This document shows positions 6,822 through 40,274 of a stretch of DNA of 64,000 bases, one piece after another (the first letter of the stretch is position 1; the number at the start of each line of letters is the position of its first letter). A model generated the notes under the pieces. It was not told the DNA's origin, ran no database searches, and saw only the letters and a list, made by a program, of their open reading frames with translations. The stretch is from Micromonospora trifolii (GTDB lineage Bacteria > Actinomycetota > Actinomycetes > Mycobacteriales > Micromonosporaceae): positions 62,001-126,000 of the forward strand of contig NZ_JAKKFD010000024.1 of the NCBI RefSeq assembly GCF_022229005.1, in the 5' to 3' direction. The translations under genes were made by a program, and so were the position numbers.

Positions 6822-8000
6822 TTGAGCCCCATCCGCTCCGCGACCATCGCGGCGCTCGCATCGGCCGTAGTGGCCACCACGCTCACCGGCTGCCAGTTTG
6901 GCGAGGCGGAACAGGACACGAGTCCGATCGTGATCGCTGCCGATCTCGAACTCTCCGGAGCCGCCGCCACGGTTGGCCGGACATACCAGCGAGCCCTCGA
7001 ACTCAAGGTCGAGCAGTTGAACTCCTCCGGAGCACTGAACGGCCGGAGGATCGACCTGAAGGTGAAGGACAACCGTTCCGACTCGGCCGAGTCACTTCGC
7101 AACATCGTCGACTTCAGCAGCGATTCGAAGGTCAGCGCCATCATCATGGGCGGCTGCAACGAATGCGCGGTCGGAGCGGTCGGGACCATCAACGAGAAGC
7201 GGATTCCCACCATTGCGCTAGCCGCTTCCGGCACGATCGCCGCGCCGGCCGCGGAACGGCGCTACGTGTTCAAGCTGGGCCCTAACGCCCCGGACAGCGC
7301 CGCCGCACTGACCACCGAACTGCGCCGCAACAACATCCGTAAGGTGGGGATGCTGGTCAGCGACGACGACTACGGCCAGGAGGGCGCGACCGCGCTCAAG
7401 AACGAGCTGGACAAGGTCAAGATCACGCTCCGACAGCAGCGGATCAAGACCACCGACACCGACGTCAGCCAGCAGGTCCAGCAGCTCGCATCGGGCAAGC
7501 CCGACGCGATGGTCTTCTGGACCCCGCCGGAGCAGGCCACACTGGCCGCCACCAGCGCCCAGCAGACCACCTTCCGTGGGTCGATCTACTTCGACGCGGG
7601 AGCGGCCGGGGACCTGTTCCTCGGCGCGGCCGCCAAGGCGACCGAGAAGGCCACGCTGATCTTCACCCAGACCATGGTGATCGACGACGTGATCGCGACC
7701 ACGCCGGCCAAGGCGGCGCGGCGGCAGTGGTTCCAGGACTACACGGCACGCTTCGGTGGCTACAACGGGTCCTCGTCGTTCGCCGCGGACGCCGTCCAGC
7801 TGATCGCCGACGCCGAACTGCGCGCCGGTGGTGAGATCGGCAAGGTGGACCGCAACGGCATCCGGGACGTGCTGGAGACGTCCCAGATGGACGGCCTCTC
7901 CGGCCCGATCCGCATGACGCCGGACAACCACAGCGGCCTGATGCCGCAGGCGCTCACCACGCTGGTCGCCCGCAACGGTCGCTGGCGGTTGGCGGGGTAA
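6822..8000 (+). CDS. ABC transporter substrate-binding lipoprotein, branched-chain amino-acid (LivK) type
   Basis: A 392-residue secreted lipoprotein. The signal peptide ends in the lipobox LTGC (about residues 22-25). A type-I periplasmic binding fold follows (IAADLELSGAAA at the start of the mature part; KVGMLVSDDDYGQEGA in the second lobe), as in leucine/amide-binding proteins. The TTG start is supported by GGAGG 6 nt upstream. No permease or ATPase genes adjoin, so it may be an orphan receptor or use distant transporter genes. Its divergence from a conservon sensor suggests a sensing role, but this is inference. Confidence 0.85.
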   Translation: MSPIRSATIAALASAVVATTLTGCQFGEAEQDTSPIVIAADLELSGAAATVGRTYQRALELKVEQLNSSGALNGRRIDLKVKDNRSDSAESLRNIVDFSSDSKVSAIIMGGCNECAVGAVGTINEKRIPTIALAASGTIAAPAAERRYVFKLGPNAPDSAAALTTELRRNNIRKVGMLVSDDDYGQEGATALKNELDKVKITLRQQRIKTTDTDVSQQVQQLASGKPDAMVFWTPPEQATLAATSAQQTTFRGSIYFDAGAAGDLFLGAAAKATEKATLIFTQTMVIDDVIATTPAKAARRQWFQDYTARFGGYNGSSSFAADAVQLIADAELRAGGEIGKVDRNGIRDVLETSQMDGLSGPIRMTPDNHSGLMPQALTTLVARNGRWRLAG

Positions 8001-8044: not shown

Positions 8045-8116
8045 GGGTGTGGCCTACCGTGCCCGGCTCCGGGCGGTCAGGCTTGATCCCTCCGCCGGGC
8101 ACGGTAGGCCACACCC
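8045..8116. repeat. Family A palindromic repeat, copy 1
   Basis: A 72-nt element: a perfect 23-bp inverted repeat (8045-8067 with 8094-8116) around a 26-nt loop (8068-8093) containing CAGGCTTGATCCCT. It lies in the gap between two convergent genes. A second copy at 18416-18487 has the same length and 25 of 26 loop bases, but a different, still paired, stem. It could help terminate both transcripts, but the conserved loop suggests more than a terminator. Confidence 0.85.
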
Positions 8117-8141: not shown

Positions 8142-8169
8142 GGGCCGGCCTCCCAGTGGGGGCCGGCCC
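8142..8169 (+). terminator. Terminator hairpin downstream of the solute-binding protein
   Basis: A 9-bp arm GGGCCGGCC (8142-8150) pairs with 8161-8169, extended inside by CCC/GGG with one bulge. The T-rich stretch TTCGCGTTTCTTG follows rightward. It lies between convergent genes and may also act on the leftward permease transcript. Confidence 0.65.
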
Positions 8170-8202
8170 TTCGCGTTTCTTGTGATTGTCTCTTCTGTTG
8201 GG

Positions 8203-9060
8203 TTAGCGGCTGCTGGTGGTTTCTCGTACCCAGGGGAGGGCGAACCGCTCGATCAGCAGGAGCGCCGAGTAGAGCAGGATGCTCACCAGCGCCACCAGCA
8301 TGATCGCCGCCCAGGCGGTGGCGGTGTCGCCGACGCCGGCGTACTGCGTGATGACGTAGCCGAGGCCGCTCTCGCCGGCCTGGAACTCACCGATCACCGC
8401 GCCGATCGCGGCCAGTGGCATGGCCACCTTGAGCCCGACGAAGATCTGCGGCAGCGCGGCCGGGAAGCGCACCTTGCGGAACGCCTGCCAGCGGGAGGCG
8501 TTCCAGGAGCGCACCAGTTCGGCCAGGTCGGCCGGCGTGGTGGTCAGCCCGGTCGCGGTGGAGAGCACGATCGGGAAGAAGCAGAGCAGGAACACCATGG
8601 TCAGGATCGGCTTCTGGCCCCAGCCGAGCGCCACCACGAGCAGCGGGCCCAGCGTGATCTTCGGCACCGCGTTCACAGCTACCAGCAGCGGAGTGAACAT
8701 CCGCTCCACAGTGCGGGAGCTGGCCAGGGAGAGCCCGATCAGCACACCGGCGGCCACCGACAGGGCGAACCCCGTCAGGATCTCCAACGTGGTGTCCCAG
8801 GTGTGCTCCAGCAGCTGCGCCGGCTTGTCGACGAACGCGGTGAGCACGTCGCCCGGTGGGGGCAGGGCTGCGGGGTGAACCAGCTCCAGCCGGGCGATCA
8901 GCCACCATGCCGCCAACGCGACCAGGATGCCGACCGCGGGCAGCACCGCCTCGGCCCCGGCCCGCAGACCGGCACCTGGACCCGTGCGCCCCACCTCGGG
9001 GCCGGCACTCGGCGGCGCGGGTTCCGCCACCGCCGGGTCCGCTGACCGGACGTCGGTCAT
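8203..9060 (-). CDS. ABC transporter permease, SsuC/TauC (nitrate/sulfonate/NMT1) type
   Basis: A 285-residue inner-membrane permease with about six TM segments and the cytoplasmic EAA-type loop (around LVRSWNASRWQAFRKVRFP) that docks the ATPase. It belongs to the family importing sulfonates, taurine, nitrate or pyrimidine thiamine precursors. The ATG start with GAGGAGG 6 nt upstream is preferred over a start 21 codons earlier. It follows the substrate-binding lipoprotein gene with a hairpin between them; the ATPase is divergent on the other side of that gene. Confidence 0.92.
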   Translation of the reverse strand: MTDVRSADPAVAEPAPPSAGPEVGRTGPGAGLRAGAEAVLPAVGILVALAAWWLIARLELVHPAALPPPGDVLTAFVDKPAQLLEHTWDTTLEILTGFALSVAAGVLIGLSLASSRTVERMFTPLLVAVNAVPKITLGPLLVVALGWGQKPILTMVFLLCFFPIVLSTATGLTTTPADLAELVRSWNASRWQAFRKVRFPAALPQIFVGLKVAMPLAAIGAVIGEFQAGESGLGYVITQYAGVGDTATAWAAIMLVALVSILLYSALLLIERFALPWVRETTSSR

Positions 9061-9108
9061 CTCTGTCCTCCTCGAAATCCCACGGCCCGCCGGGGGCCGA
9101 CGAGCGAC

Positions 9109-9146
9109 GGGGGTACGCCCCACCGGGATCGGCGGGACGTACCCCC
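9109..9146 (-). terminator. Intercistronic hairpin between binding protein and permease
   Basis: GGGGGTACG (9109-9117) pairs with CGTACCCCC (9138-9146), and further pairing is possible inside. It follows the binding-protein stop on the transcribed strand. Such hairpins often protect or partly terminate the binding-protein mRNA, so that more receptor than permease is made. Confidence 0.55.
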
Positions 9147-15843: not shown

Positions 15844-15883
15844 CCCACGGCGCAGCGCGCAGACGCACCGACCGGTCGCCGCT

Positions 15884-15960
15884 TGATCGACTCGGGTTCA
15901 TTGAAACCGGGCTGTCCCGAGCTGCCAGACACCCCGAGATCAAGGAACCCGAGTCGATCA
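15884..15960. repeat. Family B palindromic repeat, copy 1
   Basis: A 77-nt inverted repeat. The outer 16 bp are perfect (15884-15899 with 15945-15960, TGATCGACTCGGGTTC); the inner part is imperfect. It lies between two convergent genes (long-tailed membrane protein and thiC). A second 77-nt copy is at 28915-28991, also between convergent genes. It probably acts as a bidirectional terminator, but may be a mobile REP-like element. Confidence 0.85.
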
Positions 15961-15996
15961 TCCCGCGGGACGCCCCGGACTGACCCGCAGTGTGGG

Positions 15997-20092
<4,096 letters not shown>

Positions 20093-38422: not shown

Positions 38423-38743
38423 GTCCTCCGCTGTCCTGACGTCGATTGCTCCGGGCGGCCCACAACGTCTTACACGGAAATCTGATCAGAATCAGAAGCC
38501 CGCGCCAGCCGCGGCTCCAGCTCCCACCGAAGCGCAGGGTGGGCATGCCGGAGTGGACGCTGTGCGCCGATCTGAAAGTGTACGCCGGCCTGCGGTCCCC
38601 CGCCAAACCGACCACCCACCAACCCGCGCGCCGCCCCATCCGACCCCACCGCCAGCCCTGTTGATCATGAAGTTGTTGTCACGACACGCCGGAACGGGCG
38701 GCAACATCTTCATGATCAACGGGCCGGGTGGGGGTGGAGCGGA
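38423..38743. other. Upstream region of infA
   Basis: A 321-bp gap with no gene. Near 38450-38500 on the leftward strand a TGTAAG and the 10-bp palindrome TCTGATCAGA (38480-38489) suggest a promoter/operator, but no full consensus is seen. The left copy of family C (38660-38720) lies at its far end. Confidence 0.4.
38660..38720. repeat. Family C palindromic repeat, copy 1
   Basis: 21-nt arms GTTGATCATGAAG... (38660-38680) and ...CTTCATGATCAAC (38700-38720), 19 of 21 paired, around a 19-nt centre with GACACGCCGG. Copy 2 (39348-39407) is in the opposite orientation, on the other side of the DUF1707 gene. Confidence 0.8.
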
Positions 38744-39307: not shown

Positions 39308-39347
39308 GCCACCGTCGCGCCACTCCCGCCCCACCCCCGACCACCGG

Positions 39348-39407
39348 TCGATCATGAAGTTGTTGCCCGCCTCGCCGGCGTGTCAGAGCAATAACTTCAT
39401 GATCAGC
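39348..39407. repeat. Family C palindromic repeat, copy 2
   Basis: Arms TCGATCATGAAGTTGTTG and the facing AATAACTTCATGATCA (ending about 39407), with a centre that on the other strand reads GACACGCCGG as in copy 1. It lies in the 115-bp gap between map and the DUF1707 gene. Confidence 0.8.
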
Positions 39408-39422
39408 GGAGGGCCCGGGGGG

Positions 39423-40274
39423 TTACGGGGTCTTCGTGGCTGCGGGTTGGCGGGCGGTTACCAGGTCGCCCAGGCGGGCGCGGCCACCGTCGAACGCGGT
39501 GAGCACCCAGACGCCGTCGGGCAGCAGCGCCATCGAGTGCTCGACGTGCGCGGCCACCGAGCCGTCCCGGGTGACGACCGTCCACCCGTCGGCCAACTCG
39601 ACACTACGCGGGGACGCCATGGTGATCATCGGCTCGATGGCCAGGGCCATTCCGGGAACCAGTCGCGGACCCTTGCCCGGCCGACCGTGGTTGAGCACGT
39701 GCGGGTCCTGGTGCATCTCGGTGCCGATGCCGTGCCCGCCGTAGCCGTCGACGATGCCGTACCGGCCGCCCTTGCGGACAGCGGTCTCCACCGCGTGCGA
39801 GATGTCGGTCAGTCGACCCTTGCCGCTGGCCGCGCCACGCGCCGCGGCGGCGATGCCGGCCCACATCGCGTCCTCGGCGACCTCGGCCATCTTCAGCAGT
39901 GCCGGGTCGACGTCACCGACGCCGACCGTGATCGCGGAGTCGCCGTGCCAGCCGTCCAGCACCGCGCCGCAGTCGATGGAGATCAGGTCACCGGCCTGGA
40001 GAACCTGCTTCGGCGACGGGATGGCGTGCACGATCTGCTCGTTGACTGAGGAGCAGATCGACGCCGGGAAACCGTGGTAGCCCTTGAACGACGGAACGCC
40101 ACCCGCCTCGCGGATGGTCGACTCGGCGATGGCGTCCAGATCGGCGGTGCTCACACCGGGGGCGACAGCCTCCCGCATCCGGCGCAGGGCCTCGGCCACC
40201 ACCAGCCCGGCGGCCCGCATCTTCTCGATCTGGTCAGGGGTCTTCAGCTGGATGTCCAGCTGGGGACGACGCAT
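39423..40274 (-). CDS. map: Methionine aminopeptidase, type I
   Basis: A 283-residue dinuclear metallopeptidase removing N-terminal Met from new proteins. Metal ligands are visible in DCGAVLDGWHGDSA (two Asp), GHGIGTEMHQDPHV (His) and the two Glu in MALAIEPMI and the VEHS region. The ATG (MRRPQLDIQLK) has AAGGT about 10 nt upstream and is preferred over an in-frame start 12 codons earlier. It follows adk, as expected. Confidence 0.96.
   Translation of the reverse strand: MRRPQLDIQLKTPDQIEKMRAAGLVVAEALRRMREAVAPGVSTADLDAIAESTIREAGGVPSFKGYHGFPASICSSVNEQIVHAIPSPKQVLQAGDLISIDCGAVLDGWHGDSAITVGVGDVDPALLKMAEVAEDAMWAGIAAAARGAASGKGRLTDISHAVETAVRKGGRYGIVDGYGGHGIGTEMHQDPHVLNHGRPGKGPRLVPGMALAIEPMITMASPRSVELADGWTVVTRDGSVAAHVEHSMALLPDGVWVLTAFDGGRARLGDLVTARQPAATKTP

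Follow-up and report, generated by a model that had tools for sequence, protein, structure and literature searches.

The window, the whole 64,000-nucleotide stretch analyzed here, contains two 72-nucleotide hairpin elements. A periplasmic binding protein gene (6822–8000, plus strand) ends 44 nucleotides before the first element, copy 1 (8045–8116), beyond which lies a convergent ABC transporter permease gene (8203–9123, minus strand). Copy 1 consists of a 23-nucleotide left arm (8045–8067), a near-constant 26-nucleotide loop (8068–8093), and a 23-nucleotide right arm (8094–8116), all on the plus strand, and its loop carries the tip GTCA-GGCT-TGAT (8076–8087), which is common to the main loop variants seen. 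Copy 2 (18416–18487, plus strand) likewise comprises a 23-nucleotide left arm (18416–18438), a near-constant 26-nucleotide loop (18439–18464) with the tip GTCA-GGCT-TGAT (18447–18458), and a 23-nucleotide right arm (18465–18487). It is bordered by the 5′ foot TTGGTTGCGGTTG (18402–18414, plus strand), a type of foot also found adjoining many other copies, and by the 3′ foot TGACGTAGGGAC (18488–18499, plus strand), of which a form close to TGACGTGGTC is the more frequent by eye. Copy 2 is not intergenic, a point absent from the earlier note on this DNA. It lies in frame within the 3′ end of thiE (18389–19129, minus strand; TMP-TENI domain match) and encodes part of the C-terminal tail, and its 5′ foot doubles as thiE codons on the minus strand. 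The start of the thiD ORF (17607–18392, minus strand) overlaps the thiE stop.

The earlier note had described two 72-nucleotide elements with 23-nucleotide inverted arms and nearly identical loops, and this description holds. The arms of copy 1 pair at 23 of 23 positions and those of copy 2 at 22 of 23 including one T-G, the leftover position being A·C. The loops are identical at 25 of 26 bases, with CCCTCC in copy 1 and CCCTGC in copy 2 as the sole difference. The 17-mer GGTCAGGCTTGATCCCT, allowing up to three mismatches, has two matches in the window against a shuffle mean of 0.14 (n = 100; one shuffle with at least two). RNA fold z-scores against shuffles are −8.7 (copy 1) and −7.4 (copy 2) on the plus strand, and −8.8 and −6.2, respectively, on the minus strand. 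The claim that the element is not a plain terminator is also borne out, as copies occur within two coding genes, the T tract of an intrinsic terminator is absent (only TTT 3′ of copy 1 and a single T 3′ of copy 2), and copy 1 has a terminator-like hairpin of its own beside it. This GC-rich hairpin, separate from the element, was placed by eye at 8142–8169 (plus strand), downstream of copy 1, and at 8156–8174 by an automatic terminator scan, which is limited to loops of 3–8 nucleotides and so cannot report a hairpin with a 26-nucleotide loop but reports the neighboring one.

Copies across genomes and their sites

In the source genome, 12 copies occupy 12 places, eight in forward and four in reverse orientation. 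The 17-mer gave 12 genome-wide matches at up to two mismatches (11 exact and one with a single mismatch) and none for the reversed control, and all 12 copies are ungapped hairpins around TCCGGGCGGTCAGGCTTGATCCCT, one of them carrying a single base change. Thus, the further copies expected by the earlier note do exist, and the loop does not vary freely, since its 26 nucleotides are off by at most one or two bases in the 12 copies. At least one 17-mer match at up to two mismatches was found in 33 of 37 genomes of a Micromonospora sample. The covariance-model search of Micromonosporaceae suggested in that note, using a model built from 36 diverse copies, matched 126 of 250 genomes and 19 of 44 genera, leaving about half of the family sample without any match; in a phylum sample the same model matched 2 of 296 genomes, both of Micromonospora. 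These two large searches used stricter filters, by which weak matches are lost. In a class sample, the 17-mer at up to three mismatches matched 20 of 394 genomes, with exact loops in Micromonospora genomes and in genomes G206 and G265. The other 15 genomes had three-mismatch matches only, compared with seven genomes with a reversed-control match, and most of these 15 are probably noise. One exact loop also occurs in G037, a genome from another family. Among the matches listed, the named genera include Micromonospora, Verrucosispora, Actinoplanes, Plantactinospora, Hamadaea, and Catenuloplanes, together with Trueperella bonasi; Trueperella has seven covariance-model matches, the weakest with an E-value of 8.4e-4.

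The highest copy number among the genomes listed is 27 distinct copies (G521), while the 29 matches in G557 include both strands of some places. G206 has 16 copies, and four of its contigs (C4, C6, C11, and C20) all end within about 100 bases of elements. Given these contig ends, short-read assemblies may under-count the element. A search of phages and viral contigs gave no element match. A plasmid origin was considered and rejected, the one match being 27 nucleotides in a Methylomonas helicase gene and probably due to chance. Rfam gave no match at gathering score in the window between 7900 and 18700, and at E-values up to 1 the matches overlapping the 12 own-genome loci were to microRNA families, all below gathering scores. 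Among the literature matches listed, no description of the element was found, and the tip 13-mer led only to unrelated animal work.

The fetched loci comprise 405 copy records in 97 groups with different flanks, and the addition of more loci gives 425 records in 102 groups; copy records count some places twice or more through overlapping loci, and the groups are defined by shared flanking words, so diverged orthologues may be split between them. A gene-context caller, which is crude and missed thiE, classified 67 of the 97 groups, placed seven inside predicted genes, and left 23 as incomplete. The 67 classified groups divide into 26 convergent, 26 tandem sense, 12 tandem antisense, and three divergent contexts. 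Intergenic copies are mostly located just 3′ of genes, with a median distance from the upstream stop of 27 nucleotides in tandem sense and 34.5 nucleotides in convergent contexts. The 5′ foot on the loop strand contains 6% A and 29% T and the flanks are A-poor and G/T-rich, as opposed to the balanced composition of 288 control 3′ regions (A 13.6%, T 13.9%).

Copies within reading frames recur in thiE and midA. In thiE, the element peptide is in frame at 27 of 39 loci, one of which (L234) uses a different frame from the others, and the element is absent at seven (L273, L274, and L285–L289); at the remaining five, the frame was not found (L223 and L291) or ended early (L226, L230, and L235). In L213, L215, L218, L220, and L221, the full thiE copy directly follows a truncated tandem duplication of the element's 5′ portion. 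Of 17 midA locus records, 15 have the copy within an open frame, in either orientation; L018/L046 and L047/L086 are the same places counted twice. A stricter and conservative coding test, which misses the sense midA copy, retained 6 of the 97 groups as coding, thiE and midA again among them.

The site of copy 1 differs between relatives. By eye, the hairpin is present in 19 of the best 30 orthologous loci, including one cut by a contig end and one with a decayed loop, and the other 11 are without it or retain arm remnants only. At thiE, the element occurs in all of the best 30 loci, but these were ranked with a query that contained the element. In L273 and L274, it is cleanly absent from thiE with the same junction and a retained 5′ foot, which looks like deletion of the palindrome between short repeats rather than an original empty site. 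Grouped copies also occur. In G521, 12 convergent (inverted) pairs were fetched, with starts 84–225 bp apart and apparently unrelated flanks, and a search in one relative recovered only one flank. G518 has two pairs about 200 bp apart, G206 has tandem arrays with members 115–163 bp apart, and in the other genomes listed most copies look single. No clear target duplication was seen by eye in the flanks, including those of the G521 pairs. By eye, the G521 pairs mostly enclose a third long palindrome of other sequence (L375–L379 and L381–L383). In two genomes, a gene for a short, likely secreted protein (L051, 1792–2439; L138, 1534–2172) lies between elements about 1.1–1.3 kb apart, and the L051 form of this gene has no Pfam match. 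A transposase between paired copies was rejected as a candidate, as none was recognized on reading the ORFs of the 1.1–1.3 kb pairs.

Stem, tip, and folded strand

From base to apex, the element has a long outer helix of unrestricted sequence (about 22–28 bp), a small internal loop, and a helix of 3 bp; above these, GGCT forms a tetraloop closed by the 4-bp helix of the tip. The feet are weak, approximating TGGTTGCGGT at the 5′ side and TGACGTGGTC at the 3′ side. The 26-nucleotide loop is therefore itself structured rather than one open loop. In other lineages, the tip GTCAGGCTTGAT is kept while the surrounding letters change in a paired fashion, and the 3-bp helix occurs as GGG/CCC, GAG/CTC, AAG/CTT, or AGG/CCT (pairing by eye). 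The same 22 loop nucleotides are found in Trueperella, G206, G265, and G037 on stems unlike those of Micromonospora. The tip helix also shows a paired swap from GTCA..TGAT to GTGA..TCAT (C-G to G-C) in three copies, two from Trueperella and one from G265, and no single-side form is present among the 425 copy records, a total in which some places recur; the GTGA-GGCT-TCAT tip is outside the reach of the loop search patterns used. Both tips coexist in Trueperella bonasi and in G265 (L440, L445, and L447), two genomes of different families.

Pairing of the stem was assessed among paralogues and among orthologues. In 36 diverse copies (39 chosen, with L061, L138, and L163 removed for broken stems), selected by a rule of at least 15 paired positions that itself favors high pairing, 94.4% of stem cells are paired and both sides have changed at 23 of 24 stem pairs. 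The selection left out other registers, stems under 15, and copies more than 82% like one already kept, and the pairing rule also applies to the 102-group set (at least 17 positions for the 97-group set). The statistical test of covariation proposed in the earlier note gave a score of 0.825 for these copies, compared with 0.207 when shuffled (0 of 500) and 0.10–0.18 when slid. Among the orthologues at the site of copy 1 (17 rows, 16 distinct; L205 and L282 left out of 19 for gaps), 96.0% of positions are paired with double changes at 12 of 22 pairs, counts that are inflated by three register-shifted rows. Their covariation score is 0.330 against 0.089 when shuffled (0 of 500), and the number of further pair types does not stand out (48 of 500 shuffles). 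Arms lacking compensatory change, which that note had named as evidence against its reading, are thus not what is found in either set.

Two orthologues at this site with decayed loops, L199 and L282, retain 20 of 22 and 22 of 22 Watson-Crick pairs, respectively, making it less likely that the loop is the sole reason for the stem to stay paired. Template-switch correction can keep hairpin stems paired through mutation, according to PMC8794818. The earlier reading of selection on a folded molecule with a loop-recognizing partner stands for the copies, the compensatory change, the near-invariant loop, and the distinction from a plain terminator, but selection is not the sole route to paired stems. 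No loop-recognizing partner was found, with Y1_Tnp as the transposase tested.

Non-Watson-Crick pairs in the stem are unevenly distributed between the strands. When each of the 102 locus groups (from 425 copy records) is represented by a single copy, the loop strand shows 82 C·A or C·T pairs and 19 G·T or G·A pairs. The direction is the same whether the context is tandem sense (22:6), tandem antisense (10:4), or convergent (10:1), and one-sided changes relative to the group consensus go the same way (28 vs. 4 in nine groups). An earlier, hand-recomputed count of 61 A·C and 23 G·T is superseded by the 97- and 102-group counts. Among the one-sided changes, T-to-C substitutions outnumber A-to-G substitutions five to one, a pattern that would not be accounted for by avoidance of G alone, although these numbers are small. 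G·U and G·A are the mismatches best tolerated by a folded strand. Since these are the commoner mismatches on the complement of the loop strand (in the orientation used here), the asymmetry suggests that the complement is the constrained fold, and the 82:19 bias favors a constraint acting on one strand. However, a G·T pair is constant in the tip of the loop strand and corresponds to A·C on the complement, which runs counter to the strand suggested by the stem mismatches. A strand-specific mutation bias may also explain the asymmetry. A hand count by replication strand in seven single-contig genomes, with the origin assumed at base 1, gave 40 against 34.

Origin of the element and comparison with known repeats

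The reading we favor, at a probability of roughly 0.6, is that the element belongs to a family of palindromic DNA elements, mobile but non-autonomous and without coding capacity, whose folded strand would be recognized by its tip. It draws on the 12 dispersed copies, the roughly 100 flank groups, the covariation and the paired double change of the tip, the pairs in G521 and G518, the arrays in G206, presence and absence at the site of copy 1, midA copies in both orientations, and the strand-biased mismatches. The copies have different flanks, are present or absent at a given site, form inverted pairs in G521, and keep their pairing and a near-fixed tip; from this we infer an enzyme, a strand, and an insertion chemistry. 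A putative enzyme encoded by the host or by the element would recognize the tip of a folded single strand and copy or insert that strand, which is probably the complementary one to the loop strand, and stems would drift within each lineage because only pairing would matter. Several observations count against this reading, namely the lack of a clear target duplication, the deletion-like thiE absences, the lack of a linked transposase (Y1_Tnp tested), the low copy number, the persistence of old copies at orthologous sites, the pairing in copies with decayed loops, the tip G·T opposite to the stem-mismatch strand, and the pairing threshold in the choice of copies.

The element could instead be a structured RNA, a hairpin that acts in transcripts and whose tip is read by a protein or RNA, for example in protection or decay of mRNA 3′-ends. 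The tip, with a bulged short helix beneath a tetraloop, has a form common among protein-binding hairpins, and copies would spread yet be retained for such a role. Covariation in stem and tip is consistent with this, as are the 82:19 excess of mismatches that would be G-U or G-A in RNA of one strand, the many copies just 3′ of a gene, and the 26 sense against 12 antisense tandem groups with only 3 of 67 divergent, the 26 convergent groups being uninformative on orientation. However, in tandem gene pairs the mismatches mostly favor the strand that is antisense to the gene upstream, copies lie in the midA and thiE frames, and no Rfam match was obtained. Within 60 nucleotides of the hairpin, 77 copies share no strongly conserved sequence and no promoter-like one, and an independent small RNA was rejected for lack of such a conserved promoter-like flank. 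A shared regulon was likewise rejected, as the genes preceding the 12 own-genome copies have no evident common function as judged from their sequences. We regard the RNA explanation as unlikely.

Less probable still is that these are ordinary 3′-end hairpins derived from few ancestors and maintained by template switching, with loops conserved only because the copies are young. This agrees with the 3′ location, with the capacity of template switching to maintain hairpins as described in PMC8794818, and with L282, in which a badly decayed loop accompanies a 22 of 22 stem. It fits poorly with a loop whose conservation between distant lineages (Trueperella, G206, G265, and G037) greatly exceeds that of the stem, the missing T tract, the terminator-like hairpin beside copy 1, the in-frame coding copies, and the strand-biased mismatches, which template switching, as we understand it, does not predict.

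Repetitive extragenic palindromes (REPs) are the closest comparison in architecture. In PMC3733652, where the word "actinobacteria" is absent from the main text, REPs are described as short extragenic palindromes occurring singly, as inverted dimers, or in clusters, with some intragenic units, a stem of 5–13 bp, a loop of 2–20 nucleotides, and a GTAG or CGTC terminal tag; their copy number is usually above 100 according to PMC2817692. The element resembles REPs, REPINs, and BIMEs in occurring as extragenic palindromes that are single, in inverted dimers, or in clusters, with occasional intragenic units, and the 12 convergent pairs in G521 are arranged like REPINs and may move as one unit. In contrast to these REP ranges, its stem is about 22–28 bp, its loop is a structured, near-constant 26 nucleotides, and it has at most 27 copies in the genomes listed. 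The GTAG consensus is absent, and the CGTC tag is partly present in that CGTCGTGG or TGACGTGG frequently serves as the 3′ foot. That the element is a REP or REPIN moved by a Y1 (HUH) RAYT transposase is very improbable, despite the shared extragenic palindromes, inverted dimers, and clusters (PMC3733652). Y1_Tnp (PF01797) was found in 7 of 27 genomes tested, including at least five that bear the element (G000, G002, G006, G028, and G062), but it was absent from seven other element-bearing genomes (G003, G004, G005, G030, G037, G206 with its 16 copies, and G265) and present in G009, where no element copy was found. Furthermore, the 10 fetched Y1_Tnp loci contain no element core. Because stem size, loop size, and the RAYT link all fail, the element is not a REP.

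In addition, an integron attC-like recombination site read as a folded single strand would account for the location 3′ of genes, the variable paired stem, the favored strand, and the G206 arrays, yet it is the least credible of the alternatives, as the core boxes of attC lie at the hairpin base, the constant part here is the tip, and the 115–163 bp array spacing leaves little room for cassette genes.

The mobile palindromic family favored here has partial counterparts elsewhere. Like the Rickettsia palindromic elements (RPEs), the element occurs in frame within unrelated protein genes (midA and thiE). According to PMC10969869, an RPE spans about 150 bp, and in R. conorii almost half of them lie within ORFs, whereas the element is coding, by a conservative count, in 6 of 97 groups and its conserved part is the tip. 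The element is REP/REPIN-like in architecture and also RPE-like, yet is not classed as either. Sponge mitochondrial RHE and fungal double hairpins likewise appear mobile and lack coding capacity; however, PMC2800124 reports conserved stems with substitutions in the loops for the sponge RHE, the reverse of the conserved loop and variable stem seen here. With regard to MITE features, no consistent target duplication was seen by eye, and the 1.1–1.3 kb pairs flank a gene not recognized as a transposase. Protein-binding RNA hairpins such as the MS2 operator and the IRE combine a bulge, about 5 bp, and a small invariant loop above a lower stem that evolves freely. The element shares this layout, but its loop is GGCT, its copies are dispersed, and no protein is known to bind it.

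We tentatively suggest that the element could represent a separate class of selfish DNA in bacteria, in which the sole inherited sequence signal is a 12-nucleotide folded tip (or its paired variant) read by an enzyme on one strand, with the rest constrained only to pair, and which may have crossed between distant actinomycete families. If so, a nucleic-acid parasite can survive the loss of nearly its whole sequence, reduced to a shape and a 12-nucleotide tip, and ordinary repeat finders would miss it. It would also point to an unrecognized actinomycete hairpin-reading enzyme, a possible genome-editing tool. The approximately 100 locus groups and their strand-biased mismatches would form a natural test set for selection against template switching in stem pairing.

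Other palindromes were also seen. Those at 38646–38734 and 39325–39429 of the window are imperfect with GATCATGAAGTTGTTG-type arms and apparently belong to another palindromic repeat family. A further palindrome at 15877–15967 has TGATCGACTCGGGTT-like arms, and similar ones were seen by eye in L197, which is without copy 1, and between the paired copies of L050.
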